A stretch of DNA of 58,808 nt, taken from Oligoflexia bacterium (lineage in GTDB: Bacteria; Bdellovibrionota; Bacteriovoracia; Bacteriovoracales; Bacteriovoracaceae). The stretch is taken from assembly GCA_015231955.1 (NCBI GenBank), contig JADGAN010000034.1, positions 1 through 58,808 on the forward strand, given 5' to 3'. The position numbers and the translations under genes are program-made. The notes beneath the pieces are model-generated. The model was not told where the DNA came from. It saw only the letters and a program-made list of their open reading frames with translations, and did not search any database. Below are positions 24,875 through 47,829 of the stretch, in pieces. Each line of letters begins with the position of its first letter. Position 1 is the first letter of the stretch.

Positions 24875-25507
24875 TTAGCGACGGCCACGAGAAAAATAGA
24901 CAGTCTTTTCGAGGGAAGTAGTGATATCGATACACTCAAGGTAAACATCGGCAGGGACTTTCAGTAGCACTGGAGAAAAGTTTAAAATCCCACGTATTCC
25001 ACTCTCAACCAGCGTATTGGCAATCGCTTGCGCCTCTTGTGCTGGCACCGTAATAATGGCAATTTTAATTTCTCGCTCCCGAGTGAACTTTTGTAAATCG
25101 CGCATATGAAAACATTCGCAGCCTGAGATCACTCGATCCACCTTATTAGCATCAACATCAAAGGCGGCCACAATGGAGAGCTTTGGCCGTTTATGTGTAA
25201 AGTAAGATAAGATGGCCTTCCCTAAATTTCCTACCCCAATCAAGATCACATCTTGAACCTCCTTGGGATCGATCAAGTCATCGATCTCGTAGAGAAACTC
25301 ACTGACGCGATACCCTTGTTGAGGTACCCCTTTTAAGTGAAAGTACATCAAATCCCTGCGCACCTGTGCCGGAGAGACGCGCACTTCGCTGGCAAGCTCA
25401 TGGGAAAAGATAAACTCCTTTCCAATGCTCTGGTATTCGAGCAAAATCTCGCGGTAGCGACAAATCCTCTCCACACTTTTTTCTGGAATTTTTTTTCTAA
25501 CCATCAT
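24875..25507 (-). CDS. rex: Redox-sensing transcriptional repressor Rex
   Basis: 210 residues, normal for the family. The N-terminal winged helix (about 1-80) has FSHELASEVRVSPAQVRRDL, and the NAD(H)-binding Rossmann domain has VILIGVGNLGKAI and FDVDANKV. Rex releases DNA when the NADH/NAD ratio rises and typically controls fermentation and hydrogenase genes. It is divergent from the hydrogenase operon, and a site nearly identical to the Rex consensus lies in the shared intergenic region. It therefore very probably controls that operon, and perhaps itself. Confidence 0.95.
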   Translation of the reverse strand: MMVRKKIPEKSVERICRYREILLEYQSIGKEFIFSHELASEVRVSPAQVRRDLMYFHLKGVPQQGYRVSEFLYEIDDLIDPKEVQDVILIGVGNLGKAILSYFTHKRPKLSIVAAFDVDANKVDRVISGCECFHMRDLQKFTREREIKIAIITVPAQEAQAIANTLVESGIRGILNFSPVLLKVPADVYLECIDITTSLEKTVYFSRGRR

Positions 25508-25638: not shown

Positions 25639-25656
25639 TTGTGAATTAATTAACAA
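25639..25656. promoter_or_regulatory. Rex operator
   Basis: TTGTGAATTAATTAACAA matches the Rex consensus TTGTGAA-N4-TTCACAA at all but one of the 14 specified positions. It lies between divergent rex and the hydrogenase operon, eight bp upstream of a -35 box. Half-sites TTGTGAT occur again at 25680 and at 25744, and TTCACAA occurs at 25714, so there may be weaker secondary sites. Confidence 0.8.
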
Positions 25657-25691: not shown

Positions 25692-25772
25692 ATTCGATAT
25701 GAACGTTACAAGATTCACAAATCAAAAATACAAATTATTTTTATTGTGATTAACATTTCAAAGGAGGATCCG

Positions 25773-26192
25773 ATGGCAAAGATTATCTGCATCGACGACG
25801 ACAGAGACATTATTGACAGCTGCAAAATGACCTTGGAATCGAAGGGGCACACCGTGGAGAGCGCCCGAGGTGGCAATGAAGGGTATGAGAAGGCCAAAAG
25901 TTTCAAACCTGACCTAATTATTTTAGATGTGATGATGGATGATAATACCGATGGCTTTCACACCGCCTATAAATTCAGAGAGGAGGCAAGCTTAAAGTAT
26001 GTCCCTATTTTGATGCTCACCTCGATTAATCAAATCAGCAAACTTAAATTCAATAAGAAAAGTGATGCAGAGTTTTTACCCGTTGATGAGTTTATTGAAA
26101 AGCCTATTCGTCCTGATAAATTAATCGAAGTGACCAATAAACTGTTAAGTTTGAAAAAAGAGCAGATCAATGTTGATGGATCGAATAAATAA
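25773..26192 (+). CDS. Single-domain response regulator of the hydrogenase operon
   Basis: 139 residues. Receiver domain with CIDDDRD, the phospho-acceptor Asp in LIILDVMMDDNTDGF, a conserved Thr in LMLTSIN and Lys in FIEKPIRP. The ATG is six bases after AAGGAGG. The insertion DDNTDG after the phosphorylation site is shared with the receiver encoded at 32564 (MENKDSG), which suggests common ancestry. It has no output domain. As first gene of the hydrogenase operon it is a likely partner of the H-cluster-containing kinase at 30496. Confidence 0.92.
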   Translation: MAKIICIDDDRDIIDSCKMTLESKGHTVESARGGNEGYEKAKSFKPDLIILDVMMDDNTDGFHTAYKFREEASLKYVPILMLTSINQISKLKFNKKSDAEFLPVDEFIEKPIRPDKLIEVTNKLLSLKKEQINVDGSNK

Positions 26193-26208: not shown

Positions 26209-26238
26209 ACTCCCTATAGAGGCCAATCTATAGGGAGT
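26209..26238 (+). promoter_or_regulatory. Intercistronic hairpin
   Basis: ACTCCCTATAGA (26209-26220) and TCTATAGGGAGT (26227-26238) form a perfect 12-bp stem with a six-base loop, between the response regulator and the NuoE-like gene. The T-rich stretch begins only some ten bases later, so it may be a partial terminator or an mRNA processing or stability element that sets different levels for regulator and enzyme. Confidence 0.65.
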
Positions 26239-26278
26239 GCGCTTTAACTTTTTTATTTTAAGCTGTGGAGATTTAATA

Positions 26279-26737
26279 ATGGCAATGGTGGAAAGTATCT
26301 TAAAAAAATATCACTCATCCAAGCGCGATCAATTGATACCGATACTGCAAGCAATTCAAGAAGCGCAAGGGTTCCTCTCGCGCGAAAGCATTATCCGTGT
26401 TGGAGAATTTTTAAATCTCCCAGTCTCCAAAATTTATGGAGTGGCCACCTTTTATAATCAGTTTCGCTTTAAGGCGATCGGAAAATACCATGTGATGATT
26501 TGTAGAGGAACTGCCTGCCATGTCAAGGGATCTAAGAGCATTCTAGAACTACTCGAGGAGAATTTACAAATCAAGGCCGGTGATACCAGTCGTGATGGCC
26601 TCTTTAGTATCGAAGTGGTGGCATGTATCGGGGCCTGTGGACTCGCACCAGTGATTAGTATTAATGGTGAGTTTCATGGGCACTTAACCAAAGAAAAACT
26701 CATTACACTCTTAGATGAGTGTCGAAAAAATAAATAG
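26279..26737 (+). CDS. hydC: [FeFe] hydrogenase NuoE-like [2Fe-2S] subunit (HydC/HndA)
   Basis: 152 residues from the ATG at 26279, which has GGAG eight bases upstream. The N-terminal helical bundle has KIYGVATFYNQFRF, and the thioredoxin-like C-terminal domain has the four [2Fe-2S] cysteines in CRGTACHVKG and CIGACGLAP. It is the small electron-transfer subunit of trimeric NAD(P)-linked and electron-bifurcating [FeFe] hydrogenases and sits beside the NuoF-like subunit. Symbol by analogy with Thermotoga HydABC. Confidence 0.93.
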   Translation: MAMVESILKKYHSSKRDQLIPILQAIQEAQGFLSRESIIRVGEFLNLPVSKIYGVATFYNQFRFKAIGKYHVMICRGTACHVKGSKSILELLEENLQIKAGDTSRDGLFSIEVVACIGACGLAPVISINGEFHGHLTKEKLITLLDECRKNK

Positions 26738-26751
26738 AGGAAGAGATTCAT

Positions 26752-28728
26752 ATGAGCAGCAGTATAAAAAAAATTCCTGTGGAAGTTTCGGCAAGCTTTC
26801 AAGAGATGTTTTTAAAAAACTCCCCTCTTCACACAACAGAGGTGGAACTAGAAACACTTTATAAAAAATACCGTAGAGAAATCAGTGATCGCGATGTCAT
26901 CTTTTTAGGTGCAGGAACTTGTGGACTTGCCGCTGGTGCTGGCAAAACTTTAAAGGCCATCAAGAAATATTTACAGGATAAAGCACTTGAAGATAGAGTG
27001 GAGGTCGTCGAAGTGGGCTGCATCGGTGCCTGTTTTGCCGAACCCATGGTGGATATAAAGCTCCAAGGACGCCGCCGCCTCTCTTTCCAACAGGTCACGG
27101 AAGAGAAGGTTGCTGACATCCTCGATGCACTTTTTACCAAGAACAATATCGCACCAGTGCTTAAGCATATTTTTGGGCAATTTGAAGACGAGCACGCTCT
27201 CCCTTGGGAAAATCTTCCTAGTGTTAGTGAGCACCCTTTCTTTAAAAAACAGCGGCGTTTTGTTCTCGATCAATGTGGTGTTATCAATCCTGTGAGCATT
27301 GAAGAGTATATCGCACATGGTGGGTACCAGGCCTTTTTGCGAACGATTCACACCATCACCCCATCCAATATTTGCGATATGGTAGAGAAGAGTGGACTAC
27401 GTGGACGTGGAGGTGGTGGCTTTCCAACTGGCAAGAAGTGGAAGCTCGCTCTTGCCAATAGTGCTGACCAAAAATATATTATCTGTAACGCCGACGAGGG
27501 AGATCCTGGTGCCTTCATGGATCGCGCGGTGATCGAAGGTGATCCTCATAAACTACTAGAAGGGCTGCTCATTGGTGCTTACGCTATTGGTGCCTCCAAG
27601 GCCTACATCTATATTCGTGCCGAATACCCTTTAGCGGTCAAGAATTTAACTCAGGCGATTAATGATGCTAAAAAGTATAAACTCCTCGGAGAAAATATTT
27701 ATGGCAGCGGTTTAGATCTCGATGTGATTATTAAAATGGGTGCGGGCGCTTTTGTTTGTGGTGAGGAGACAGCGCTCATTCACTCTATCGAGGGAAAACG
27801 GGGCATGCCAAGACCAAGACCACCCTATCCTGCAGCTAGCGGACTTTTTAAAAAACCCACGATCATCAATAATGTCGAAACTTTTGCCAATATCCCTTTG
27901 ATTATTAGTCGTGGCCACGAATTTTTTAGTGCGATCGGCACCTCCAATAGCAAAGGCACCAAGGTGTTTGCTCTCTCTGGAAAAATCAAACGCACAGGAC
28001 TAGTGGAAATTCCCATGGGCACCACGCTACGTGAAATTGTCTTTGAAATTGGTGGCGGTATTGAGCACGACTACAAATTTAAAGCAGTACAAATTGGTGG
28101 ACCTTCCGGTGGTTGCATTCCAGAAGAGAAGCTCGATATTGAGATCGATTATGAGTCGTTAAAAGCGGTGGGGGCCATGATGGGTTCGGGAGGACTGGTG
28201 GTGATGGATGAACACACCTGTATGGTGGATGTGGCAAAATTCTTTATGGATTTTATCCAGCGAGAAAGTTGCGGCAAGTGCATCCCTTGCCGTGAAGGCA
28301 CCAAAAGCATGCTGGAGATTTTAAAGGCCATCACCCAAAATCGCAAACACGAAAAAGAGAACGAAACCCTGGTGCGCTTTCAAGGCATCATGAATTTTGA
28401 ACGACTAGCACAAGTGATCAAGGATACCAGTTTATGTGGCCTGGGACAAACTGCTCCCAATCCTATCTTAAGCACGCTTCGCTGGTTTCGAGATGAGTAT
28501 GAAGCACACATTTACGATCGGAAATGCCCTGCTGGTGCTTGCCAGGAGCTACTGAGCTACAGCATCGATAAAGAGAAGTGCAAAGGGTGTACGCTTTGTA
28601 TGAAGGTGTGTGCCGTAAATGCCATTAGTGGCGAGAGAAAACAGGCGCACTCCATCGATCAAGAGAAGTGTATTCTTTGTGGTGCCTGTTTTCGTAGTTG
28701 TAAATTTGCAGCGATTAAAGTTTCGTAA
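26752..28728 (+). CDS. hydB: [FeFe] hydrogenase NuoF-like FMN/NAD(P)H subunit (HydB/HndC)
   Basis: 658 residues in four parts. The first 130 are a thioredoxin-like [2Fe-2S] domain with GAGTCGLAAG and GCIGACFAEP. Next is the FMN/NADH domain with GRGGGGFPTGKKW and CNADEGDPGAF. Then comes an SLBB region and the [4Fe-4S] motif ESCGKCIPCREGT. A C-terminal pair of ferredoxin clusters follows (CKGCTLCMKVC and CILCGACFRSC). This architecture is that of HydB/HndC of trimeric bifurcating or NAD(P)-dependent [FeFe] hydrogenases. It lies 14 bp before hydA, clearly one operon. Confidence 0.95.
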   Translation: MSSSIKKIPVEVSASFQEMFLKNSPLHTTEVELETLYKKYRREISDRDVIFLGAGTCGLAAGAGKTLKAIKKYLQDKALEDRVEVVEVGCIGACFAEPMVDIKLQGRRRLSFQQVTEEKVADILDALFTKNNIAPVLKHIFGQFEDEHALPWENLPSVSEHPFFKKQRRFVLDQCGVINPVSIEEYIAHGGYQAFLRTIHTITPSNICDMVEKSGLRGRGGGGFPTGKKWKLALANSADQKYIICNADEGDPGAFMDRAVIEGDPHKLLEGLLIGAYAIGASKAYIYIRAEYPLAVKNLTQAINDAKKYKLLGENIYGSGLDLDVIIKMGAGAFVCGEETALIHSIEGKRGMPRPRPPYPAASGLFKKPTIINNVETFANIPLIISRGHEFFSAIGTSNSKGTKVFALSGKIKRTGLVEIPMGTTLREIVFEIGGGIEHDYKFKAVQIGGPSGGCIPEEKLDIEIDYESLKAVGAMMGSGGLVVMDEHTCMVDVAKFFMDFIQRESCGKCIPCREGTKSMLEILKAITQNRKHEKENETLVRFQGIMNFERLAQVIKDTSLCGLGQTAPNPILSTLRWFRDEYEAHIYDRKCPAGACQELLSYSIDKEKCKGCTLCMKVCAVNAISGERKQAHSIDQEKCILCGACFRSCKFAAIKVS

Positions 28729-28742
28729 AGGAGAATTAGTAT

Positions 28743-30485
28743 ATGCCGACAACCATTAAGATCAGTGTCAATGGCAAAGAGTATAATGTAAGGCCGGGAG
28801 TTACCATCTTAGAGGCCATTCGCGACATGGGAATTTCGGTTCCCACACTTTGCCACCTCAAAAATTTATCGCCAACTGGCGCTTGTCGCCTCTGCGTGGT
28901 AGAGATCGATGGCGTAGCAGGATTAGTTCCTAGTTGCTCCTATCCCGTCAGCGAGGGCATGGTGATCAAGACACACTCACCACGTACGATGGTCGCCAGG
29001 AAGACCATCGTGGAGTTGCTGCTCGCCTCTCATCCGAATGACTGCCTCTATTGTGAGCGCAGTCGCAATTGTGAGTTATCTAAACTTGCCAGTGAATTTG
29101 GAGTGACCGCCCAACACTTCCCAGTGGTCTCCCATGGACACCACAAAGATATCTCTAGTCCCTCGATCAATCGCGATCCCGAAAAGTGTATCTTATGTGG
29201 TAAATGTGTGCGCGTGTGTGAAGAGGTGCAAAGTGTGAGCGCACTCGATTTTGTAAGTCGCGGGCATAAAGCGCAAGTGGCCCCTGCCTTTAATGAGGGG
29301 CTAAACGTCTCCAGTTGTATTAACTGCGGCCAATGCGTGATGGTCTGTCCGACTGGTGCACTAACGGAGAAGAGTAATTTAAAAGAGGTTTTGGCCGCAC
29401 TCTCTGACAAGAAAAAACATACCATTATCCAATACGCTCCTAGCATCTCAGTGACACTTGCCGAAGAGTTTGGATTAAAAGCAGGCCAAGATGTTGTAGG
29501 TAAAATGGCAGCGGCCTTTCGAAAAATTGGTTTTAAAACCATCTTTGATACCTCTTTCTCTGCCGACCTTACCATTATGGAGGAGGGTTCGGAGTTTATT
29601 CATCGCTTGCAAAATGGCGGCAATTTCCCAATGTTCACCTCCTGCTCTCCAGGATGGGTTAAATTTGTAGAGGAGTTTTATCCCGAATATATCGATCACC
29701 TCTCCACTTGTAAAAGCCCACAGCAGATGTTAGGTGCCATCAGCAAACACTACTGGGCCAAAAAAAATGGTGTCGATCCCAAAGATGTTTTTATGGTTTC
29801 CATCATGCCTTGTACTGCTAAAAAATTTGAGGCCAAACGCCCAGAGAATTTTGTGGATGGGATTCCCGATATCGATGTGGTGCTGACCACCAGGGAGACC
29901 GCCAAACTTTTAAAATTTTATGGAGTTGATCTTTCACAACTCGATCCAGAAACTGCCGATTTGCCCTTTGGCAACTACAGTACTGCAGGAAAACTTTTTG
30001 CAGCAACCGGAGGAGTGATGGAAGCGGCACTACGGAGTGTACACTTTTTATTAACTGGAAAAGAGATTGAAGATCTTAAGCTACAAACGGTGCGCGGCCT
30101 TGATGGCATCAAAACAGCAACATTAAAAATAAATGATATAGAAGTAAATATTGCAGTAGCAAGCGGTCTTGGCAATGCTAGAAAAATCATGGACGATATC
30201 AAACATAAACGTAAAAACTATCACTTTGTTGAAATCATGAGCTGCCCTGGTGGCTGTATCAACGGCGGGGGCCAGCCCTATAGTTCTCTTACCAGCACCC
30301 ATGAAAAAAATGTACGGGCCAGAATGCAAGCACTCTACAATATAGATCAGATGGGCAGTGTACGCCAATCGCACAAAAACCAGGCAGTGATCGATCTCTA
30401 CGACGATTTCTTAAAGAGGCCGTTAAGCGATGTTAGTCACCACCTCTTGCATACCCACTACCATGCAAGAAAGGTCGTAAAGTAG
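28743..30485 (+). CDS. hydA: [FeFe] hydrogenase catalytic subunit HydA (group A)
   Basis: 580 residues. It has an N-terminal [2Fe-2S] domain (PTLCHLKN, GACRLCVVE), a His-Cys [4Fe-4S] segment (HPNDCLYC, RNC), two ferredoxin clusters (CILCGKCVRVC, CINCGQCVMVC) and the H-domain. H-cluster motifs are L1 TSCSPGW (299-305), L2 MPCTAKKFE (355-363) and L3 EIMSCPGGCINGGGQP (497-512); the small-subunit-like C-terminus is fused. L1 normally reads TSCCPxW; here the second Cys position, which in Clostridium CpI ligates the [4Fe-4S] part of the H-cluster, is Ser302. Reversible H2 production coupled through HydB/HydC to NAD(H) and ferredoxin is expected. AAGGAG precedes the ATG. Confidence 0.95.
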   Translation: MPTTIKISVNGKEYNVRPGVTILEAIRDMGISVPTLCHLKNLSPTGACRLCVVEIDGVAGLVPSCSYPVSEGMVIKTHSPRTMVARKTIVELLLASHPNDCLYCERSRNCELSKLASEFGVTAQHFPVVSHGHHKDISSPSINRDPEKCILCGKCVRVCEEVQSVSALDFVSRGHKAQVAPAFNEGLNVSSCINCGQCVMVCPTGALTEKSNLKEVLAALSDKKKHTIIQYAPSISVTLAEEFGLKAGQDVVGKMAAAFRKIGFKTIFDTSFSADLTIMEEGSEFIHRLQNGGNFPMFTSCSPGWVKFVEEFYPEYIDHLSTCKSPQQMLGAISKHYWAKKNGVDPKDVFMVSIMPCTAKKFEAKRPENFVDGIPDIDVVLTTRETAKLLKFYGVDLSQLDPETADLPFGNYSTAGKLFAATGGVMEAALRSVHFLLTGKEIEDLKLQTVRGLDGIKTATLKINDIEVNIAVASGLGNARKIMDDIKHKRKNYHFVEIMSCPGGCINGGGQPYSSLTSTHEKNVRARMQALYNIDQMGSVRQSHKNQAVIDLYDDFLKRPLSDVSHHLLHTHYHARKVVK

Positions 30486-30495
30486 GTTTACGACT

Positions 30496-32544
30496 ATGAA
30501 TACAACTCAACTCATCTCCACCATAAAAGAGCGCTGTAAAGTTTGCTACACTTGCGTTCGTAAATGCCCGGCCAAAGCGATTCGTATCAATCGCGGCCAG
30601 GCGGAGGTGATTGCTGAACGCTGTATCTCTTGCGGAAGTTGCATCAAGTTTTGCACACAAAAGGCCAAACAGATCATAAGCTCCATCGGAACAACAGAAG
30701 CGATCTTAAATTTAAGTCGCCAAGCTGACAATAGTTTCAAAGTTGCAGCTTGCCTGGCCCCTAGTTTCCCCGCCGCTTACGAGGACATCGCCCCTGAAAA
30801 GCTGGTTGCGATGCTTAGGGCCTTAGGTTTTGATTTTGTCTTTGAAACTGCTTTTGCCGCCGATTTGGTAGCAATCACTTATAAGCGATTTTTAGAAACA
30901 ACTCCCTCTAAAAAATTTATCACTTCCCCTTGTCCGGCCATCGTTCACTATGTAGAGAAGTATCATCCCAATTTAGTCTCTGCCCTCATCCCTATTGTCT
31001 CTCCCATGATTGCCATGGCAAGAATTATTCACAGTCGCCATGGAGATAATGTCAAAGTGATCTTTATTGGCCCCTGTACCGCTAAGAAGATGGAAGCCTT
31101 ACGTTTTTCAGGTAAGCATTTTTCGGAGATTGATGAAGTGCTAACCTTTGATGAACTAAACCTACTCTTTAAAAAAAATGACATTTCTCCTGCTACAATT
31201 CATCTAGGGAAATCGCCTTTCGATCCCCCTCACCCTCGAAAAGGCCATCTCTTTCCTATCGGTCGAGGAATTTTAGAGACTGCAGATATTGAAGACAACC
31301 TGATGAAAAGCGATGTCATCTCTGCCGAAGGTACCAAACAGTTTATCGAGGTCTTAAATGAATTTGAAGAGGGCTCCATTAATGAAGTACGACTTTTGGA
31401 TCCACTTTGTTGCAATGGTTGTATCATGGGACCTGGGATCAGTTGCTCGCGAACCAAGCACTACCGACAAACATTAGTCAGCAGGTACGCACGCGAACAA
31501 TTTATGCAATCGTGCGAGGAGGAGTGGCAAGAGGAGATTTTGCGCTACCAATATTTAGATTTAAACTGTAAGTACTCCATTGACGACAAAAGAATACCTC
31601 CACCTTCCGATGAAGATCTTAATCGCATCTATAAGCAGATGGGAAAGAGTCTCGAGACCGATATGCTCAATTGTGGGGCCTGCGGTTATATCACTTGTAG
31701 GGATCACGCTACCGCCATTCATAAGGGGTTGGCGGAAACGGAGATGTGTCTTCCCTACACCATTGATCGCTTAAAACAAATTGCTAGTGAACTTAGCGAA
31801 TCGTATGAGCAACTTGCCAGCACCAAAAAGGCGTTAATCCAACACGAAAAACTTGCAAGCATGGGACAACTGGCGGCAGGCATTGCTCATGAGGTCAATA
31901 ATCCTTTAGGGGTAATTCTACTCTACTCCAATATTCTCTTTGAGGAGACACCAGTGGATGATAAGATCCACGACGATTTAAAGCTCATTGTTGAGCAGGC
32001 CAATCGCTGTAAAAAAATTGTCTCTGGTCTTTTAAATTTCTCCAGAAAAAATCGCATCAATATTCGACCTACACGCATTAGTGAACTCATTGGTAAAACT
32101 GTCAAGACGATAATTCATCCAGGCAATATTCGTATTAAATTTCACCCCTTAAACAATGAAAATATCGTGGCCGAGATTGATCCCGATCAGTATGTCCAAG
32201 TTATCAATAACCTGCTCACCAATGCCATCGAGGCGATGCAAGATGGAGGAACCATCACCATCACAGTGACTCACGACGAGCATAATCTCATTGTAAGTGT
32301 CCGTGACAATGGCCCGGGAATCAAAGATGAGATTCAAAAAAAGATTTTTGAACCCTTTTTTACCACCAAGCAAATGGGCAAAGGCACCGGGCTTGGCCTT
32401 GCGGTCTCTTACGGTATCATGAAGATGCATCGTGGACAGATTGTGGTTAAAAGCAATGCAGATGCAAAACACGGTGATACTGGTAGTGAATTTATATTAA
32501 TTTCTCCCTTGCAAGGGCCAACACAAGAATTGATTAGTGAATGA
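30496..32544 (+). CDS. Histidine kinase with [FeFe]-hydrogenase-like H-domain (putative H2/redox sensor)
   Basis: 682 residues. Two ferredoxin clusters lie at residues 14-24 and 43-53. A hydrogenase-like domain (about 80-330) keeps all four cysteines expected for the H-cluster cubane: Cys146 in TSPCP, Cys194 in GPCTAKK, Cys305 and Cys309 in CCNGC. The proton-relay Cys is Pro145. A further four-Cys Fe-S segment is at 393-418 (CGACGYITC...C). A coiled linker leads to a HisKA domain with His465 (GIAHEVNNP) and an HATPase with NNLLTNAIEA, DNGPGI and GTGLGLA. It sits 10 bp after hydA, between two receiver genes. I infer that it senses H2, CO or redox state through an H-cluster-like site. Confidence 0.88.
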   Translation: MNTTQLISTIKERCKVCYTCVRKCPAKAIRINRGQAEVIAERCISCGSCIKFCTQKAKQIISSIGTTEAILNLSRQADNSFKVAACLAPSFPAAYEDIAPEKLVAMLRALGFDFVFETAFAADLVAITYKRFLETTPSKKFITSPCPAIVHYVEKYHPNLVSALIPIVSPMIAMARIIHSRHGDNVKVIFIGPCTAKKMEALRFSGKHFSEIDEVLTFDELNLLFKKNDISPATIHLGKSPFDPPHPRKGHLFPIGRGILETADIEDNLMKSDVISAEGTKQFIEVLNEFEEGSINEVRLLDPLCCNGCIMGPGISCSRTKHYRQTLVSRYAREQFMQSCEEEWQEEILRYQYLDLNCKYSIDDKRIPPPSDEDLNRIYKQMGKSLETDMLNCGACGYITCRDHATAIHKGLAETEMCLPYTIDRLKQIASELSESYEQLASTKKALIQHEKLASMGQLAAGIAHEVNNPLGVILLYSNILFEETPVDDKIHDDLKLIVEQANRCKKIVSGLLNFSRKNRINIRPTRISELIGKTVKTIIHPGNIRIKFHPLNNENIVAEIDPDQYVQVINNLLTNAIEAMQDGGTITITVTHDEHNLIVSVRDNGPGIKDEIQKKIFEPFFTTKQMGKGTGLGLAVSYGIMKMHRGQIVVKSNADAKHGDTGSEFILISPLQGPTQELISE

Positions 32545-32563: not shown

Positions 32564-32953
32564 ATGATAGAAAAAACCATTTTAGTTGTTGATGATGATT
32601 ACGATATCAGAGAACAAGTCTCGCTCTTTTTACGCCATAAAGGCTTTACAGTGATTACCTGCGAGGGTGAGGTAGAGGCGACCAAGACCATCGGCGCTGT
32701 AAATTTTGATTTAGCAATCCTCGATCTCATGATGGAAAACAAAGATAGCGGCGTGATTTTAGGCCACAAGATTAAAAAGAAAAACCCGCGTATCCCCATC
32801 ATCATGATATCTGCAGTCACCAAAGAGACTGGACTACACTTTGATGCTGCAATAGAAGATGAGCAGCGCTGGATGAAAGCAGATGTGTTTTTGCCCAAAG
32901 ATATTCGCTTTGAAGATTTACATAGTAAAATTAATCAACTGCTTTCTAAATAA
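32564..32953 (+). CDS. Single-domain response regulator
   Basis: 129 residues. Receiver domain with VVDDDYD, phospho-acceptor Asp in LAILDLMMENKDSG, Ser in IMISAVT and Lys in FLPKDI. AAGGAG lies just upstream of the ATG, which follows the sensor kinase by 19 bp, so this is its most likely phosphorylation partner. No output domain. Confidence 0.92.
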   Translation: MIEKTILVVDDDYDIREQVSLFLRHKGFTVITCEGEVEATKTIGAVNFDLAILDLMMENKDSGVILGHKIKKKNPRIPIIMISAVTKETGLHFDAAIEDEQRWMKADVFLPKDIRFEDLHSKINQLLSK

Positions 32954-32971: not shown

Positions 32972-34105
32972 ATGGATAAATTCAAAGTACTTGTTGTGGA
33001 TGACGAACCTGGAATGCGTATGGGTGTACTCCGGGTGCTAAAAAATTATGAAATCTTTTTTTCAGAATTCAGTGAAACCATCAGCTTCGAACTGATGGAA
33101 GCCAGCAGTGGTGAGAAGTGTTTGGAGATCATCGCTAACAATCCTCCAGACATTCTCATCCTCGACCACAAGCTACCAGGAATTCAAGGCCTAGATATCC
33201 TAAGCCAACTACGTGCAGAAAAGAAAAATATTTGTGCCATTATGATCACCGCCTTCTCTTCACTAGAGGTGGCAATCACCGCCACTAAAAATGGTGCTTT
33301 CGATTTTCTAGCAAAGCCCTTCACTCCAGATGAATTAAAAAATACCATTGATAAAGCAGTCAAGCACACTTACTTACAAAAGAAGGCACGAAAATTAGAG
33401 GAGGAAAAACGGCAAGTGCGTTTTCAATTCCTCTCGGTGCTGGCCCACGAACTAAAATCACCCCTGGCCGCCATCGAAGGCCATCTACAACTGATGGAGT
33501 GTAAAATTGCCGGTGATTCTATCGATGCTTATAAATCAATGATCGAGCGCTCGATCCTACGCATCGATGGCATGAGGAAGATGATCTACGACATGCTCGA
33601 CCTCACTCGTATCGAATCGGGAAACCGCGAGCGTAAGATTGCCACTCACAATATTGTGGCGCTTGCTCACGATGCTCTTGATGCCATTCGCATAGATGCC
33701 ACAAAAAAAAACTTGCAGCTTAACTTCGAGGCCCCTTCCGAATTACTGCTTCCCATTGATGCTGATGAAATCACCATTGTCTTTAATAACCTGCTCACCA
33801 ATGCGGTTAAATACAATAAAATGAGTGGCACCATTTTATTTAAAATCACCAGGCATGAAGATTATTTAAGCATCGTTTGCCAAGATAGTGGCATTGGCAT
33901 GAAGAAAGAGGATGTGGCAAAACTTTTTGGAGAGTTTGTTCGTATTAAAAATGAAAAAACGCGCGATATCCTTGGAAGCGGTCTAGGTCTTTCTATCCTA
34001 AAGAAAATTCTTCACCTAAATCAAGCAGAGATCAAGATCGAAAGTGCAGAGGGAGAAGGAACTACCTTTACCATCACCTGGCCGATTATTACATCCCTGG
34101 CCTAG
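32972..34105 (+). CDS. REC-histidine kinase hybrid
   Basis: 377 residues. The receiver domain comes first (VVDDEPG, Asp in LILDHKLPG, Thr in MITAFSS, Lys in AKPFTPDEL), then a coiled linker, a HisKA domain with LAHELKSPLAAIEG and an HATPase with NNLLTNAVKYN, DSGIGM and GSGLGLSI. REC-first hybrids usually have kinase activity set by phosphorylation of their own receiver, so this may be the next stage of a relay starting from the H-domain kinase. Last gene of the hydrogenase operon. No DNA-binding output is encoded in the operon. Confidence 0.92.
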   Translation: MDKFKVLVVDDEPGMRMGVLRVLKNYEIFFSEFSETISFELMEASSGEKCLEIIANNPPDILILDHKLPGIQGLDILSQLRAEKKNICAIMITAFSSLEVAITATKNGAFDFLAKPFTPDELKNTIDKAVKHTYLQKKARKLEEEKRQVRFQFLSVLAHELKSPLAAIEGHLQLMECKIAGDSIDAYKSMIERSILRIDGMRKMIYDMLDLTRIESGNRERKIATHNIVALAHDALDAIRIDATKKNLQLNFEAPSELLLPIDADEITIVFNNLLTNAVKYNKMSGTILFKITRHEDYLSIVCQDSGIGMKKEDVAKLFGEFVRIKNEKTRDILGSGLGLSILKKILHLNQAEIKIESAEGEGTTFTITWPIITSLA

Positions 34106-37743: not shown

Positions 37744-39000
37744 TTATAGGTAGTCTTCACTGAGGTCAATACCAGGACGTAGTAGTTTTTCGAAGGGATG
37801 GATGGCACGCTCGAAAATGCCTTGAGCGTAAGCAATCGCCATTCCATAGTTGGTGATGGGGATGTTAGCGGCGATGGCCAGGGAGAGGCGATTTAAAATT
37901 TGTCGCCTCGTCAGCATGCAGCCCCCACACTGAATGACTAAAGCGTATTCGTGGATGGGACGAGTAAGAGTATCGAGTCCGCTCACCACATCAAACTGTA
38001 AACGCTTGCCTGTAAAATTGGAGAGCCACCTAGGAATTTTCACCCGCCCAATATCGTCTCCACTGATATGGTGAGAACACGACTCTAAGATTAAAACATT
38101 GTCGTGCTCTTTTAGTTGCTTAATGCTCTTGGTGCCTTGAATATAGCGCTCAAAATCGCCTTTTAAGCGCGCAAAGAGAATACTAAAACTTGTAAGTGAA
38201 ATCTCGGGAGGGATAACGGAGGCAACTTTCAGAAACACCTGGCTATCGGTGATCACTATTTTAGGACGGAGATCGTAACTTAATCGTTTCCAAAAATTAT
38301 CCAGCTCTCGCTCCTTCATCATGTAGATGATCCCTTCATTATCGAGGATATCACGAATGGTTTGCACTTGCGGTAAGATGATTCTTCCGCGAGGGGCCTC
38401 AGCATCGATAGGGGTCACCAAGAGCACCGACTCTCCATAGGAGATAAGATCACTTAAGATCGAAGGATTATTTAACGCCTGTTCGGGAATTTTCGATTTC
38501 ATGATCGAGATGAGATTTTTAATCTCTGCTTCACTGCTGGTAAGGGAAGAAAAATCGTAAACGGGAACGTGGTAGCTTTCAGTTAATTTTTGTGAAAAAT
38601 TTTCAGAGATTTTTTGCAGGTCCGATTTATGGTGAATAAATAGGAAAGGGGTTTCTAAGATATTTAACTCTTTAATTAAACTCTCCTCTTCGCTGCTAAT
38701 GGTGTTAGCGCAAAGGAGAATAATCGCGAGATCAACTCGTCCTAAAACCTCTTTGGACGCTTGTACGCGCTTATGGCCAATGCCACCTCCCCCTCCACTC
38801 TCATCATCAATGCCCGCAGTATCGATAAACACCACAGGACCAAGATCTCCCATCTCCATACTTTTTATCACCGGATCGGTAGTGGTACCTTTTACTTCAC
38901 TGACGATGGAGACTTGTTGTGCTGTAAGCTTATTCAGAAAGGAGCTTTTGCCACTATTTGTTTTACCAAAAATTCCAATATGCGGACGAATGCTTCTCAT
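37744..39000 (-). CDS. hydF: [FeFe] hydrogenase maturation GTPase HydF
   Basis: 418 residues. The GTPase domain (1-165) has GIFGKTNSGKSS (G1), a Thr-rich switch EVKGTTTDPV (G2), IDTAGIDD (G3) and HHKSDL (G4). A dimerisation domain follows, then a [4Fe-4S] domain with ESCSHH and QCGGCM. The usual HCGGC is QCGGC here, so the fourth, non-Cys ligand may differ. HydF is the scaffold that carries the 2Fe precursor to HydA. It overlaps the aspA stop by four bases (ATGA), so translation is coupled. Confidence 0.95.
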   Translation of the reverse strand: MRSIRPHIGIFGKTNSGKSSFLNKLTAQQVSIVSEVKGTTTDPVIKSMEMGDLGPVVFIDTAGIDDESGGGGGIGHKRVQASKEVLGRVDLAIILLCANTISSEEESLIKELNILETPFLFIHHKSDLQKISENFSQKLTESYHVPVYDFSSLTSSEAEIKNLISIMKSKIPEQALNNPSILSDLISYGESVLLVTPIDAEAPRGRIILPQVQTIRDILDNEGIIYMMKERELDNFWKRLSYDLRPKIVITDSQVFLKVASVIPPEISLTSFSILFARLKGDFERYIQGTKSIKQLKEHDNVLILESCSHHISGDDIGRVKIPRWLSNFTGKRLQFDVVSGLDTLTRPIHEYALVIQCGGCMLTRRQILNRLSLAIAANIPITNYGMAIAYAQGIFERAIHPFEKLLRPGIDLSEDYL

Positions 39001-40442
39001 AAAATTTCTTCCACGCTAAAACCCAATTTTAAAATATTTTCACTCTTTAAAATATTTTGTAACTTCTCTTCAGGAATTAAGTTTAAAGTACGATTGGCGG
39101 TAATGATATCAACTTTTTTGTCCTTCATCTCTTTGGCAAGCACTGACGCTTTTTTATGGCCAATATAGGGAACCACCAGTGTAACAATCGTCGGACGTAG
39201 CAAAATATTGCTATCACTCTTTTCCTTAGAGATCACCAGTGTGGGTATTAAATTTTCTCGAAGAGAGCGACTAATGGCAATCAACACCTCCAGCGACTCA
39301 ATAAAGGCCACTCCAATAGAGGGAAGATAAGGATTTAAATCCAAACTTCCTTGAGCACAAAGAGCTGTGATTAGTTGATCATTAGCATAGATCTTGTGAG
39401 CAAGAGAGATGGCATACTCTGAAATCACCGGGTTCACCTTTGTCGGCATAATGGAGCTTCCCAGCTGGCAAGGAGCAATTTTAAGCGTATGCTCATAGTA
39501 GAGGTCACTCGATAAGAGGCGTAGATCAGAGGCCATTTTTTCAATGTTCACCGCATACGCTTTTAAGATCGCATGCGACTCCACCAAAGCATCCAAGTTA
39601 GCGGTAGCATCTTGCAAATTTTCTGCTCGCGCTAAAGGGAAGGGTAGAAAAGTTTGTAAAAAATTAATCGCCTCAAACACAAAAAAACGAGGAACACCAA
39701 CCGCAGTACCAATAGCACTACCCCCAAGATTACAAACTTTTAAACGCTCAAAGCATTTGGAGATGCGCCACCAATCGCGAGAAAAGGCCTCTTGATAGGT
39801 GCTAAAGAGGCGACCAAAAGTTGTAGGTACCGCCTCTTGCCACTCGGTTGCACCCATACGAAGAGTATAGCGATACTCTTTTTCCTTGGCCTCAATCTCT
39901 TGTCGTAAAAGCTGTACCTCCTGCTCTAAGTTTTTAAGCTGCAATAAAATCGCAATCCTTAGTGCGGTTGGAACAACATCATTAGTAGATTGAAAGATAT
40001 TACAATTTTCTAAAGGATCGATAATACCGTAATCGCCGCAAGCACGCCCTAAAATACGCAAAGTACGATTAGCAATAATCTCATTCACATTCATATTAAT
40101 GCTGGTACCAGCGCCACCGCTAATTGCCGGTACAATGAAGTGCTCAAAGTGTTCTCCTTGCCACACCTCCCAACTTGCCTGCAATAATGCCCATACCTCT
40201 TTTTCCGCCATCACTCGAAAGGGCAAGGTCTTATGAGAGCCATACTTTTCATAAATCTTCTTCATGAATTTCTCATAAGTTTTATAGTAGACGTGTTTTA
40301 CTAGGCCCACACTACGATACCAATCGAGCGGAAAGGGCCTTGCCCAAGGAAAATTTTTTCGTGCACGAAAGGAGTTGATTCCATAGAGTGCATGTTGATC
40401 AATCTCCACACTCCCAATAAAATCACTCTCAACTCTCTTCAT
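38997..40442 (-). CDS. aspA: Aspartate ammonia-lyase
   Basis: 481 residues of the fumarase/aspartase superfamily. It has GAGTSINMNVNEIIANR, QSTNDVVPTALRIA and the SS-loop signature GSSIMPTKVNPV; the residue after MP is Thr where Gly or Ala is usual. It converts aspartate to fumarate and ammonia. It lies between hydG (39 bp) and hydF (overlapping), an arrangement seen in other hyd maturation clusters, which implies a supporting role in H-cluster synthesis or nitrogen supply. Argininosuccinate lyase and fumarase are less likely from the loop sequence. Confidence 0.88.
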   Translation of the reverse strand: MKRVESDFIGSVEIDQHALYGINSFRARKNFPWARPFPLDWYRSVGLVKHVYYKTYEKFMKKIYEKYGSHKTLPFRVMAEKEVWALLQASWEVWQGEHFEHFIVPAISGGAGTSINMNVNEIIANRTLRILGRACGDYGIIDPLENCNIFQSTNDVVPTALRIAILLQLKNLEQEVQLLRQEIEAKEKEYRYTLRMGATEWQEAVPTTFGRLFSTYQEAFSRDWWRISKCFERLKVCNLGGSAIGTAVGVPRFFVFEAINFLQTFLPFPLARAENLQDATANLDALVESHAILKAYAVNIEKMASDLRLLSSDLYYEHTLKIAPCQLGSSIMPTKVNPVISEYAISLAHKIYANDQLITALCAQGSLDLNPYLPSIGVAFIESLEVLIAISRSLRENLIPTLVISKEKSDSNILLRPTIVTLVVPYIGHKKASVLAKEMKDKKVDIITANRTLNLIPEEKLQNILKSENILKLGFSVEEIL

Positions 40443-40481: not shown

Positions 40482-41927
40482 TCACCAATAGATGTCACGA
40501 TTGCCGTTTGCAATCTTTACCAGCTCACTTTGAATATTTTGTACAAGTGCTGGATTTGCTATTTTCTCTTTTAAAATTTTTTCAATGAGACTTAGGCCGC
40601 TCATAAAAAGTTCACTTCCTCTGGGAGCAAAATCGTAAAGGTATTCGGCAAAAGTAAAGAGGGCATTGGGCATACAATGCTCTTTAATTGCACCAGGTTT
40701 GGCAAGATCCATAAAATCCGCCCCCACTCTTCCTAAGCGATAGCAGCCCGTACAAAAGGAGGGGATATACCCTAAGTGAACCATATCCAAAATCACTTCT
40801 GCAAGCTCCCGATGATCCCCAAGCGAAAATTGCTCTTCACAAAAATGGTTGCCAGGAGAGGCAGATCCATAACCGCCTGGATTAGTCTTAGAGCCCGCAG
40901 AGATTTGAGAGATACCCAAGGCAAAAGCATCACGCCTCATCTGTGCACTCTCGCGCGTACTTAAGATGATTCCCGTATAAGGGACTGCCAATCTCAAAAC
41001 TGCTATAATCTTTTTAAAATCGCTATCGCTTACCTCATACGGAGGCCTTTCACTAAGCTTAGAGTTGTGAGCAGGTTCAATTCTTGGAACAGAGATAGTG
41101 TGCGGGCCTACACCAAACTCTGCCTCTAAATGCCTCACATGCGCTAGCATCGCCAACATCTCGTAGCGCCAATCATAAAGTCCAAAGAGCACGCCAATGC
41201 CCACATCGTGCAGTCCTGCGTGAAGTGCCCTATCCATCGTTTGCAAACGAAAATCGTAGTTGGCCTTTGCTCCTTTGAGGTGCAACTTGCGATAACTCTC
41301 TTGATGGTAGGTCTCTTGAAAAAGCTGGTAGGTGCCAATGGGGTACTTTGCTAAAAGTTTAAACTCTTCCTCTTGTAAAGGAGCAATATTTACATTAATC
41401 CGCCGAATATTTCCCTTCGCCTCTTTTTGTGCATAGATGGTTTCAATCGAGCGAAAGATATAGTTTAGGCCCTCTTGACCATAGGACTCTCCCGTCACCA
41501 GGAGAATACGCTTATGCCCTTGTGCAATCAGCGTTTGCGTCTCTTTTGCAATCTCCTCTTGATTCAAGGCCACACGATGCAGCTGCTTATTGCTACTGCG
41601 AAAAGCACAGTAGAGGCACTCGTTATTACAAAGATTGGAGATATACATAGGTGCAAATAGCACTAAGCGGTTTCCGTAAATCTCCTCTTTCACAAAGCTT
41701 GCTGTGTGATAGAGCTGCTGCAAAAGTTCCACTTCACTCTCACCAATCTGCAAGAGCGCTAATACCTCGCTATCCTCTAAACCCCGTAGCTCTCGTGCTT
41801 TGGTCAAAATTTCTGTAACTCTGCTTTTGTCACTCTTCTCAGCTAAAAGCTTATTCATCTCTTGAGAAATTTTCTTAAAATCGATGATCATTTTTTTTGT
41901 ACTCATAAAATCACTCACTTGTAGCAT
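40482..41927 (-). CDS. hydG: [FeFe] hydrogenase maturase HydG, radical-SAM tyrosine lyase
   Basis: 481 residues. The radical-SAM cluster motif is C100-NNE-C104-LY-C107. The C-terminal auxiliary cluster is FCTGCYRLG followed by EHCMPN. HydG cleaves tyrosine to make the CO and CN ligands of the H-cluster. First gene of the minus-strand operon hydG-aspA-hydF, converging on the hydrogenase operon. The start is uncertain: ATG codons at 41927 and 41906 are both possible, neither with a strong ribosome site. hydE, the third maturase, is not in the window. Confidence 0.95.
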   Translation of the reverse strand: MLQVSDFMSTKKMIIDFKKISQEMNKLLAEKSDKSRVTEILTKARELRGLEDSEVLALLQIGESEVELLQQLYHTASFVKEEIYGNRLVLFAPMYISNLCNNECLYCAFRSSNKQLHRVALNQEEIAKETQTLIAQGHKRILLVTGESYGQEGLNYIFRSIETIYAQKEAKGNIRRINVNIAPLQEEEFKLLAKYPIGTYQLFQETYHQESYRKLHLKGAKANYDFRLQTMDRALHAGLHDVGIGVLFGLYDWRYEMLAMLAHVRHLEAEFGVGPHTISVPRIEPAHNSKLSERPPYEVSDSDFKKIIAVLRLAVPYTGIILSTRESAQMRRDAFALGISQISAGSKTNPGGYGSASPGNHFCEEQFSLGDHRELAEVILDMVHLGYIPSFCTGCYRLGRVGADFMDLAKPGAIKEHCMPNALFTFAEYLYDFAPRGSELFMSGLSLIEKILKEKIANPALVQNIQSELVKIANGNRDIYW

Positions 41928-44309: not shown

Positions 44310-45698
44310 CTATTTTGTTTTTTTCTTTTTGCGCCCTAAAAAATCTGTCAATTTTTCGTTAACCATTTTTAGCTCATCGATTAACTTTTCTCGAATCAAA
44401 ATTTGTGATCCCGCAACTGACTTAAACTCCTTCACCTTCTTTTTATCCTCGCTAATCAGAGCGCTTCGCTTGTTGATCTCCTCTTGAGTAAAGCGATAGA
44501 CGGGCATCTCTGCCAAATACTCACCGTGCAAAAATTTCTTTTGCACTAGGTACTCGATAAAGCTTTGACGGTTGGCACACTTTTGAGCAACGGTGTAGTG
44601 CTTATCATTCACAAAACGGATGATCTCATCGTTACGCGAGATACGCTCTTCCGCGGCACTGGCCCAAAGTTCATAGCGACGCTGCACCACTTGTAAACGA
44701 CGCTCTGTGAAAATTTTTAAAATCTCCTCTGGTGCCTCTAAAATCTTCACCCCACGCTCTGAAATCAGGGTGTAGTTGGGAGTAAGTGAGGTCGAAGCAC
44801 TCATCCGCTCTCGCACCTCTGCAAGCGGCGGACGCTGTCCCTTTTTAAAGATGAGTTCGATCTTAATCTCATTATCCACGGAAGAGTCGATATAATCTTT
44901 GAGGTAGTCGCGATCGATAAATTTTCCTAGGTGCTTATAAATTCTTTGCGCATCGTAACCGCGGGGGATCTCATTGATAAAAATCTTCTCATCGATCTCT
45001 TCAAAGTAGATCTCCGTGATGATCTTTCCATTCTCATCAATTTTAAAATCTTTTTTGTAGTGCCGAAACCACGGTTTTAAGCGCTTCGCTCTTCCGGTGT
45101 TAACGATGGAGATCATGGAGTCCACAATATCTTTGTGATGAAAGGAGGGAATAACCGAGGAAAATCCTGTCCCAATGCCTTCTGCTCCATTAAGCAACAT
45201 GAGAGGCAACTTAGGTAAAAAGTGCACCGGCTCCTCACTGCGCTCATCGTAGTTGGGAATCATCTGCACCTGCTCCATATCATCAAAGAGCAAGAGATTG
45301 GCGATCTCTCCAATCTTACACTCAATATATCGCCCGGCCGCAGGTGCAGTCTCTAAACGCTCTCCAAAATAACCTTTTTTGTCGATCAGCGGATAGTTGT
45401 TGGCGAAAGTAAAATCTTGCGCCAGATTCACAATCGAGGCCTCGATAGAGGCGGGCCCATGTGGATGCAACGTTAGCACTAATCCCGTAGCAGAGGAGAC
45501 TTTGAGCAGCCCTTTACTCGTATTTTTCCAAAGGGTGTAGAGGATTCTTCGTTGGCACGGTTTTAGTCCATCTTCCAGGTAAGGAATCGCACGATCCATC
45601 AGTGTATAGATTTGATAATTTCGATACTCTTGTCGCACCATCTGCGATAAGGGTACAGACGCAATATTGTATTGGATGGTTGAATTTTCAATGGCCAT
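44310..45698 (-). CDS. Type IIA topoisomerase A subunit, compact (T4 gp52/eukaryote-like)
   Basis: 462 residues. The breakage-reunion core has DGLKPCQRRILYTL, HPHGPASIEASIVNLAQDF and the active-site tyrosine in AAGRYIEC. Bacterial GyrA and ParC read AAxRYTE, have GD(T/S)A before the helix and are 740-880 residues with a beta-pinwheel. This protein has no pinwheel, and its motif wording (NNYPLIDKKGYFGERL) is closer to phage T4 gp52 and eukaryotic topoisomerase II. It probably decatenates or relaxes DNA with the B subunit encoded 28 bp upstream. It may be a phage-derived second topoisomerase. Confidence 0.85.
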   Translation of the reverse strand: MAIENSTIQYNIASVPLSQMVRQEYRNYQIYTLMDRAIPYLEDGLKPCQRRILYTLWKNTSKGLLKVSSATGLVLTLHPHGPASIEASIVNLAQDFTFANNYPLIDKKGYFGERLETAPAAGRYIECKIGEIANLLLFDDMEQVQMIPNYDERSEEPVHFLPKLPLMLLNGAEGIGTGFSSVIPSFHHKDIVDSMISIVNTGRAKRLKPWFRHYKKDFKIDENGKIITEIYFEEIDEKIFINEIPRGYDAQRIYKHLGKFIDRDYLKDYIDSSVDNEIKIELIFKKGQRPPLAEVRERMSASTSLTPNYTLISERGVKILEAPEEILKIFTERRLQVVQRRYELWASAAEERISRNDEIIRFVNDKHYTVAQKCANRQSFIEYLVQKKFLHGEYLAEMPVYRFTQEEINKRSALISEDKKKVKEFKSVAGSQILIREKLIDELKMVNEKLTDFLGRKKKKTK

Positions 45699-45726
45699 GA
45701 TTTTTTCTTAACCTCTTAAGCAAACG

Positions 45727-47682
45727 TTACTGATCTAACAACAGATCTTTTCGAAGATTAGTATCTTTACCAAAACACACCTCAAGAGCACGCTTGGCCG
45801 CCTCCATATCTTCAACTGTAATTTTGATATAATTTTTTCTCGCCATCAACTCGCGAAAGGCCTCTGCGGACATCTCCCCGAGTCCTTTGTTCCGCTGAAT
45901 CTCTTTGACCTTCGCCCCACTCTTCTTTAAGCGCTCCAACTCCTCGATCGACTCCACATACACCTTTTTTCCCTGTTCGAGAATTACTTCATAAAGAGGT
46001 GGTCTTGCAATTTGAATCATACCTTTGGCAAAGAGTTCGGGCCAAAAGATAAAAAAGAAGTTGGTTAAAAGGGTGTTGATATGCCCACCATCAACATCGG
46101 CATCAGCAAGAAAGACAATTTTAGAGTAGCGAATCCGATCAAAATCGACCGGGGCACCTAGTGTAAGTCCCACTGAGGCCATAATGTCACAAAGCTCTTG
46201 ATTGGCGAGTACATCTTTAATTGAACTTTGCGCCACATTCATCGGCTTCCCTTTAATCGCCATCCCACCTTGGTAAAGTTTATCCCGGGCAGAGCGTAGT
46301 CCTCCAATGGCCGAATCCCCTTCACAAATAAAAAGAGTACACTTGCTGCGATCTTTTCTCTCATTGGCATCGAGTAGCTTCTCTACACGCACGCGTTTTT
46401 GCTGCTTTCCTTTTTTAGTCGCCTCTTTCATCTCCTCGAAACGCTGGCGGTGGCGTGCACGCTCCACTACTGCATCAAGATACTCTTGCGACTTCTTAAT
46501 AAATTTCTCTCCATACTTATTTAAAAATTCATTAAGAGCAGCATCGAGGTGTACATCACGAACCAGTTTACGCTTAGTTTGCGACTCAAAACGTGGGTTA
46601 GGCATAGTAATACCCACAATAAAAATAGTGCCGCTTAAAATATCATTATCGGTAATCGTAACTCCCTCTTTCTTTGCCACCCGCTCCAGCTTCTCTTTTA
46701 CCAGGTTGGTAAAAACTTTTTTCACGCGCTCATGGTGAAAACCACCATCATAGGTGGGTGTGGAGTTCACAAAAGAGATAAAACGCTCGCGACCACTCTC
46801 CTCCTTCGAAAAAACCATCGACAACGAAAGATCGATCTTCCCTTTAAAAGCAATACCCTTTGCATTCACTCCGCTATAGGTGTACTCATCATCTCCAAGA
46901 TGGAACGGAACAAACCCCGGTGTCTTGGCACATCTCTCGGCAAGCTCCGACAAACCTTGCTTAAAAAGATACTTCTCTCCATTCAGATAAAAAGTAAGTC
47001 CAGGGTTGTTATAGGCCAAGTCGATAATACGCTTGCGTAACATCTCCTCATTGATCACATTGTCCTTGTACACCTCTGCGGCGAGAGAAAGTTCTACCTT
47101 CACTCCCGAAGCTCCTTCAAAACTTTTAGCAGGAGTCTTCTTCACTTGATTAGCACCATCAACAAAGAGGAAAGTTTGCTCCTTTTTTGACAGGTAGTGA
47201 CGAACCGTCACCTTAAAAAAGTCGCATGTAAGGCAAGTGGCCGCAGCGCCTAAGCCATTTTGCCCCAATGTACGAAACAAAAATCCCTTGTCATCCACCT
47301 CTTCATCACGAAATTTTGATCCCGTTCTAAACTCTGCATAAACGGCACGAATTTTATCGTGCGGAAAACCAATACCGTTATCGCTAATGGTGACAATCTT
47401 CTTATCTGGTGACAAAACGGTGCGAATCTCAGTCACGTGGCCACGATAAAATTCATCGATAGAGTTATCTAAAATCTCTTCGATCGCTTTTGATTTTGCC
47501 TGATGAAAAGAGACCGACCTGAACACCAGCCCATTTTCATCGTAAAGATAGGTGTCTAATTCTTCAACATCGTTACTTCCAAACACCAATGTGACTCGAT
47601 TACGGCAATGCCAACGCTGATCTTTGCTTTCAATTTCAGCATCCTTGACAACACCTCTACGTCGAACAACTTCCATTTCCAT
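45727..47682 (-). CDS. Type IIA topoisomerase B subunit (T4 gp39/eukaryote-like)
   Basis: 651 residues. The GHKL ATPase has EEILDNSIDEF, SDNGIGFP and GQNGLGAA. The transducer has MPNPRFESQTKRKL with the switch Lys. The Toprim domain has FICEGDSAIGG, FLADADVDGGHI and RNKGLGEMS. Bacterial GyrB/ParE read GLHGVGxSVVN at the GQNGLGAA position, so this is a divergent, phage- or eukaryote-like variant. Start uncertain: ATG 47682, with AAGGA 12 bases upstream, is preferred over ATG 47694. First gene of a two-gene topoisomerase operon. Confidence 0.88.
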   Translation of the reverse strand: MEMEVVRRRGVVKDAEIESKDQRWHCRNRVTLVFGSNDVEELDTYLYDENGLVFRSVSFHQAKSKAIEEILDNSIDEFYRGHVTEIRTVLSPDKKIVTISDNGIGFPHDKIRAVYAEFRTGSKFRDEEVDDKGFLFRTLGQNGLGAAATCLTCDFFKVTVRHYLSKKEQTFLFVDGANQVKKTPAKSFEGASGVKVELSLAAEVYKDNVINEEMLRKRIIDLAYNNPGLTFYLNGEKYLFKQGLSELAERCAKTPGFVPFHLGDDEYTYSGVNAKGIAFKGKIDLSLSMVFSKEESGRERFISFVNSTPTYDGGFHHERVKKVFTNLVKEKLERVAKKEGVTITDNDILSGTIFIVGITMPNPRFESQTKRKLVRDVHLDAALNEFLNKYGEKFIKKSQEYLDAVVERARHRQRFEEMKEATKKGKQQKRVRVEKLLDANERKDRSKCTLFICEGDSAIGGLRSARDKLYQGGMAIKGKPMNVAQSSIKDVLANQELCDIMASVGLTLGAPVDFDRIRYSKIVFLADADVDGGHINTLLTNFFFIFWPELFAKGMIQIARPPLYEVILEQGKKVYVESIEELERLKKSGAKVKEIQRNKGLGEMSAEAFRELMARKNYIKITVEDMEAAKRALEVCFGKDTNLRKDLLLDQ

Positions 47683-47829
47683 AGAGCAACACATTCCTTT
47701 TATTTAGTCGTTTAGTTAGTACCCATAGTAACTATGCTTGTAAAATGATTTTGCTTTAACTAATCTAAAAGAAGAAGAAAAAAAATCAACCCTCTCCCTT
47801 GAACTTAAATCTATCAACAGGGTCAAGCT

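Follow-up and report, generated by a model that had tools for sequence, protein, structure and literature searches.

The analysed window, a 58,808-nucleotide stretch of DNA from an Oligoflexia bacterium (Bdellovibrionota), encodes a sensory [FeFe]-hydrogenase-like histidine kinase of 682 amino acids, HydS/BfuT. Its gene is a single intact open reading frame (30496–32544, + strand) that starts 10 bp past the end of hydA (28743–30485, + strand), which agrees with the placement directly after hydA given in an initial annotation of the sequence. HydS most likely belongs to the kinase type of group C, C3/BfuT, a placement based on the published description of that type and on a Calditrichota protein (L050) that is 51% identical to it. 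We assign a probability of about 0.6 to the reading that HydS is a cytoplasmic kinase-fused sensory [FeFe] hydrogenase, with a matured H-cluster that binds H2, controls His465 and feeds back on hydCBA alongside Rex. The sequence is best read as that of a sensor with an H-cluster-type domain at its core: it keeps the pocket residues and lacks the group A proton path, and genes for HydA and maturases lie close by. The initial annotation had likewise proposed HydS as a candidate direct sensor, and this part of its proposal remains the most plausible one, whereas its case for novelty and its choice of Cys305 as a cluster ligand do not.

The domain order assigned in the initial annotation (two ferredoxin clusters, a hydrogenase-like domain, a four-cysteine segment and a full HisKA/HATPase kinase) was recovered in full, with each domain above its Pfam cut-off and all of them on the + strand. 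Two 4Fe-4S motifs (Cys14/17/20/24 and Cys43/46/49/53, 30523–30654) lie within N-terminal Fer4 dicluster matches at residues 10–57, and their cysteines are invariant in 52 relatives. The H-domain (Fe_hyd_lg_C, 8e-47) covers residues 82–313 (30739–31434). A C-terminal 4Fe-4S segment follows, with Cys393/396/401/418 in the spacing Cx2Cx4Cx16C (31666–31755; FeS, Pfam accession PF04060, 2.9e-8, residues 391–420). HisKA begins about 35 residues past this segment (31861–32049; 7.8e-14, residues 456–518) and contains the invariant phospho-acceptor His465. HATPase_c (32179–32511; 6.2e-26, residues 562–672) completes the protein and carries N, G1, F and G2 boxes whose residues are invariant.

Comparisons with solved structures also divide the protein in two. 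The N-terminal half resembles the [FeFe] hydrogenases HDCR HydA2, TmHydA and DdHydAB, and the C-terminal half resembles histidine kinases such as ZraS. An AlphaFold2 model built from a 52-row alignment has a mean pLDDT of 85, reaches about 95 across most of the H-domain, and shows a low-confidence hinge at residues 436–463 ahead of HisKA. We used this model for fold matches alone, including a Foldseek search. Residues 1–363 of the model match the active hydrogenase CbA5H with a Z-score of 42.1 (rmsd 2.5 Å over 350 residues) and CpI with a Z-score of about 39.

Sixteen cysteines are exactly invariant across the 52 aligned relatives, corresponding to four clusters with four ligands each: the two ferredoxin sets, Cys146/194/306/309 and Cys393/396/401/418. 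The kinase boxes are complete and equally invariant (His465, Asn572/576, Asp604/Gly606/Gly608 and Gly630/632/634). Pairwise identity in this alignment is 44–83%, and the joint invariance of the 16 cysteines and all kinase boxes is far above chance.

All four H-cluster cubane cysteines are present in HydS. In an alignment of 83 kinase-type relatives, Cys146, Cys194, Cys306 and Cys309 correspond to CpI C300, C355, C499 and C503, and each is a cysteine in 83/83 sequences. The ligand codons, assigned by conservation, are 30931–30933 (Cys146) and 31075–31077 (Cys194), with those for Cys306 and Cys309 lying within 31411–31422 (+ strand). The ligand set first proposed was Cys146/194/305/309, of which Cys146, Cys194 and Cys309 hold and Cys305 is replaced. 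Cys306 almost certainly supplies the third cubane ligand, since it is invariant whereas position 305 (CpI A498) is Cys in 61, Ala in 19 and Ser in 3 of the 83 relatives. We rejected Cys305 on this conservation pattern and on the spacing in one relative (L048), whose sequence LCCDGGC has the normal x3 interval from its second cysteine.

The last pair of ligands in HydS is spaced by two residues, not three. The L3 motif reads CCNGCIMGPG, as initially annotated, and in 82/83 relatives the loop that separates the final ligand pair has lost one residue relative to the aligned solved [FeFe] hydrogenases. The missing residue is CpI G501, which converts C-x3-C into C-x2-C; L048 is the sole exception. 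We considered whether the short loop arose specifically with the kinase and rejected this idea, as C-x2-C also occurs in three Bacteroidales PAS-type second copies (L091, L093 and L095). No mention of the shortened loop was found in the portions of the literature on sensory [FeFe] hydrogenases that were accessible.

Residues near the 2Fe site are strongly kept among the 83 relatives (CpI numbering): A230, P231, K358 and E361 in 83/83, S232 and P354 in 82/83, and F417 in 80/83. The group A proton path is absent from HydS, where C299 is replaced by Pro145, E279 by a gap, E282 by Thr128 and S319 by Ile165. Proline at the proton-relay position had been noted in the initial annotation and is correct. 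Across the kinase-type relatives C299 and E279 are lost and S319 is mostly Ala; the C299 position is occupied by Thr (40), Ser (23), Ala (8), Pro (7), Asp (4) and Asn (1). Two further group A features are replaced in HydS, with Gly192 at M353 and Leu304 at M497, and the changes Q325 to Met, M353 to Gly and M497 to Leu are invariant in the kinase-type family.

Characterized sensory hydrogenases help to interpret these substitutions. In TmHydS, C299 is replaced by Ala, M353 by Gly and M497 by Ser (PMC10055695); in TamHydS, M497 is Leu and M353 is Ser (PMC8163306). Each of these two proteins binds a functional H-cluster (PMC10055695, PMC8163306). Gly192 and Leu304 are therefore no bar to cluster binding. 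However, 2Fe binding by HydS is not a given, because L3 is shortened and because the M497L substitution in CpI blocked proper [2Fe] integration (PMC10055695).

The surrounding genes form a bifurcating hydrogenase operon. On the − strand lies rex (24875–25507; Pfam CoA_binding and Put_DNA-bind_N), which encodes a redox-sensing repressor. Between rex and the divergent hyd operon lies a perfect Rex operator, TTGTGAATTAATTAACAA (25639–25656), with 0 mismatches to TTGTKAANNNNTTMACAA. No other perfect match occurs in the 5.6-Mb genome, and a reversed control pattern gave 0 matches. A Rex site with at most two mismatches lies close to the rex or hydC start in 28/49 relatives' loci. On the + strand, the operator is followed by the stand-alone receiver RR1 (25746–26192; Pfam Response_reg alone), the NuoE-like hydC (26237–26737, with the ATG probably at 26276; 2Fe-2S_thioredx, 5e-50), the NuoF-like hydB with C-terminal ferredoxin clusters (26752–28728; Complex1_51K, NADH_4Fe-4S and Fer4), hydA and hydS. 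A second stand-alone receiver, RR2 (32564–32953; Response_reg alone), and a receiver-HisKA-HATPase hybrid that is a conserved neighbour (32972–34105; assigned by Pfam) come next. Like the hybrid, both receivers are conserved neighbours.

HydA is a catalytic [FeFe] hydrogenase of the bifurcating, NADH-dependent type (NCBIfam FeFe_hydrog_A6, 833 bits, above cut-off), and its closest solved chains are HydA of T. kivui and A. woodii. Its TSCSPGW motif has Ser where CpI has the cubane ligand C300, as in the A. woodii HydA1 chain 7q4v. Ser is common at this position in several Hydrogenedentota subtypes (PMC11406978).

Downstream of the hybrid kinase, three maturation-cluster genes lie on the − strand: hydF (37744–39000; NCBIfam GTP_HydF, 478 bits), an aspartate ammonia-lyase-like gene (38997–40442) that relatives also carry between hydG and hydF, and hydG (40482–41927; NCBIfam rSAM_HydG, 490 bits). 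The presence of hydF and hydG near hydS, part of the original proposal, is thus borne out, with both above their NCBIfam cut-offs within the window. HydE is encoded on a separate contig (C33), so the genome has a full HydEFG set. Kinase-fused hydS occurs in only 6 of the 369 Bdellovibrionota genomes searched, the Oligoflexia genome included. Bdellovibrionota are best known for aerobic predators, and a full bifurcating [FeFe] hydrogenase with HydEFG is unusual for the phylum. Elsewhere in the window, a short gene pair resembling type II topoisomerase A and B subunits (44310–47694; 462 and 655 amino acids) scores well under the curated GyrA/ParC and GyrB/ParE cut-offs.

Relatives were collected by family and phylum searches (L004/L104, L005/L108 and L105–L107) and by a contig scan (at least 80 loci among the matches listed; 540 confirmed matches). 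Among the matches listed, at least 80 loci from more than 10 phyla share the HydS architecture, 79 of them with the HisKA motif. Carriers include Planctomycetota, Hydrogenedentota, Bacteroidota, Latescibacterota, Myxococcota, Calditrichota and Bdellovibrionota, among others, and the kinase-fused sensory type is widespread across anaerobic bacteria. The usual locus order in these matches is rex-hydCBA-hydS-receiver-receiver/kinase-hydE/G-aspA-hydF. Among the matches listed, the closest recognised gene upstream of hydS is hydA in 65/85 loci, and the closest one downstream is RR2 in 55/85.

HydA is above its cut-off in 46 and HydG in 38 of 50 relatives' genomes; these metagenome-assembled genomes vary in completeness. 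We dropped the idea of testing 2Fe binding through the co-occurrence of maturases: it does not discriminate, because the catalytic HydA, nearly always present, itself requires the same maturases. Five Bacteroidales loci (L074, L082, L091, L093 and L095) encode a second, divergently transcribed sensor of about 620–630 amino acids that lacks a kinase and is PAS-type by similarity. In a quick tree, with the outgroup and two PAS rows on long branches, these second copies group among the kinase-fused proteins. Two-sensor clusters have been noted before (PMC11406978).

These observations suggest how HydS may work. A HydEFG-matured H-cluster in the H-domain, held by Cys146/194/306/309, would bind H2. 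Because the usual proton path is missing, turnover would be slow and the cluster could settle in a reduced or H2-bound state. This state may be passed through the accessory 4Fe-4S clusters, or as a change of conformation, to the helix between the FeS segment and HisKA, which would alter autophosphorylation of His465. Electron relay through the C-terminal cluster is doubtful because the equivalent TamHydS cluster does not respond to H2 (PMC13104023); we regard a conformational route as at least as likely as an electron route. Phosphate would then move to RR2, the likely phospho-acceptor, and/or to the receiver of the adjacent hybrid kinase. The output may be feedback on hydCBA, parallel to Rex acting on NADH/NAD+ at the operator upstream of the operon. 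In this scheme 2Fe binding, H2 as the ligand, the direction of the switch, the receiver partner and the output are all inferred. A link to transcription is missing, because both RR1 and RR2 lack output domains by Pfam; Rex apart, no DNA-binding output partner for the receivers was found in the cluster, and a sigma-54 activator motif was detected in only 3 open reading frames across the relatives' loci.

The same features could be read as a departure from standard H-cluster chemistry. It is possible, though we hold it only tentatively, that the H-cluster site has been rebuilt in the kinase-fused family (C-x2-C, M497 to Leu, M353 to Gly and Q325 to Met) and now carries either a non-standard H-cluster or a 4Fe-4S cluster by itself, with direct signalling into the kinase. 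If true, the rebuilt site would make a one-polypeptide gas or redox sensor with chemistry unlike that of TmHydS and TamHydS. A somewhat less likely alternative is that the H-domain holds a [4Fe-4S] cluster alone, with no 2Fe, and that HydS senses redox, O2 or electron flux in general, its kinase responding to the ferredoxin/NADH state near HydABC. The near-universal L3 deletion and the invariant Leu at M497 fit such a protein, as do the intact ligand sets for four 4Fe-4S clusters, and the presence of Rex in this operon shows the importance of redox poise. Yet the CN-contacting Ala-Pro-Ser and K358, together with F417, are invariant or nearly so while proton-path residues drift, a pattern that is hard to explain without 2Fe. 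The maturases encoded within the same cluster also argue against this reading, as does TamHydS, a 2Fe-binding protein with an identical Leu (PMC8163306).

Other readings keep the H-cluster and change the role of the protein. CO binds H-clusters, and the sequence does not separate CO from H2, so HydS might sense CO or another H-cluster ligand instead. We consider this improbable given the steady linkage to a bifurcating hydrogenase operon, scored with homologues of the window's own genes, and the relative CO tolerance of the related group D HydS (PMC8163306). Slightly less credible still is the idea that HydS works as an auxiliary hydrogenase whose kinase is degenerate or decorative. TmHydS and TamHydS do retain low catalytic activity (PMC10055695, PMC8163306), but in HydS the proton path is lost, two-component genes come next, and all 52 relatives keep the phospho-acceptor His and the N, G1, F and G2 boxes unchanged.

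The interest of HydS lies in how sensory [FeFe] hydrogenases convey H2 binding to a signalling output. In the kinase-fused type the sensor and the output lie in one soluble protein, and H2-dependent autophosphorylation should therefore be directly measurable. The family-wide L3 deletion and the exact 16-cysteine set offer sharp mutants for such tests, and the near-invariant shortened loop turns H-cluster binding itself into a sharp, testable question. The Rex site shared with the operon suggests joint control of the hydrogenase genes by NADH/NAD+ and H2.

Kinase fusion had initially been presented as a departure from known PAS-carrying sensors. That argument for novelty fails because a kinase-fused C3 protein beside an A3 hydrogenase was published in 2024 (PMC11406978) and because roughly 10% of the sensory sequences in HydDB have Pro at C299 (PMC10055695). 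The 2024 report describes two forms of the group C3 [FeFe] hydrogenase BfuT, which carry either a PAS domain or a histidine-kinase domain. The kinase form belongs to sub-type V bfu clusters, common to Caldithrix abyssi and Hydrogenedentota, in which bfuT adjoins bfuA (PMC11406978). HydS has the corresponding features: Fe_hyd_lg_C, HisKA and HATPase_c are fused, and hydCBA of a bifurcating A3 hydrogenase lies directly upstream. The Ser in TSCSPGW of the window HydA also recalls BfuA, whose fifth P1 position is commonly Ser outside sub-type IV (PMC11406978). HydDB labels C3 'phosphatase-linked' and C1 'histidine kinase-linked' (PMC5037454). The published group label and the domain content thus do not correspond exactly. 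We found no kinase-fused sensory [FeFe] hydrogenase in the literature that had been purified or bench-tested.

HydS shares further features with PAS-type group C (M2f) proteins, namely TmHydS and T. saccharolyticum HfsB: two N-terminal 4Fe-4S sites, Gly at M353, linkage to another hydrogenase operon and, with exact spacing, the C-terminal Cx2Cx4Cx16C signature of groups C and D (PMC8163306). TmHydS-type proteins contain a PAS domain, and the recipient of their signal is believed to be another protein, whereas HydS has no Pfam match to PAS and has HisKA/HATPase directly after the FeS segment; TmHydS also has Ser at M497, where HydS has Leu. Deletion of hfsB in Thermoanaerobacterium raised hydrogenase activity, adhE expression and ethanol yield (PMC5707799), so the genetics of this PAS-type relative support a regulatory role. 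TamHydS-type group D (M2e) proteins resemble HydS in their cluster set, Leu at M497 and lack of PAS, but differ in lacking a kinase and in having Ser at M353, where HydS has Gly192. A functional parallel is the Ralstonia regulatory [NiFe] system HoxBC and HoxJ, in which an H2-sensing hydrogenase controls a histidine kinase (PMC5707799), although that hydrogenase is unrelated and HoxJ is a separate polypeptide. HydS is thus closest to kinase-type BfuT, from which it differs in coming from Bdellovibrionota, where the kinase-fused type is rare.
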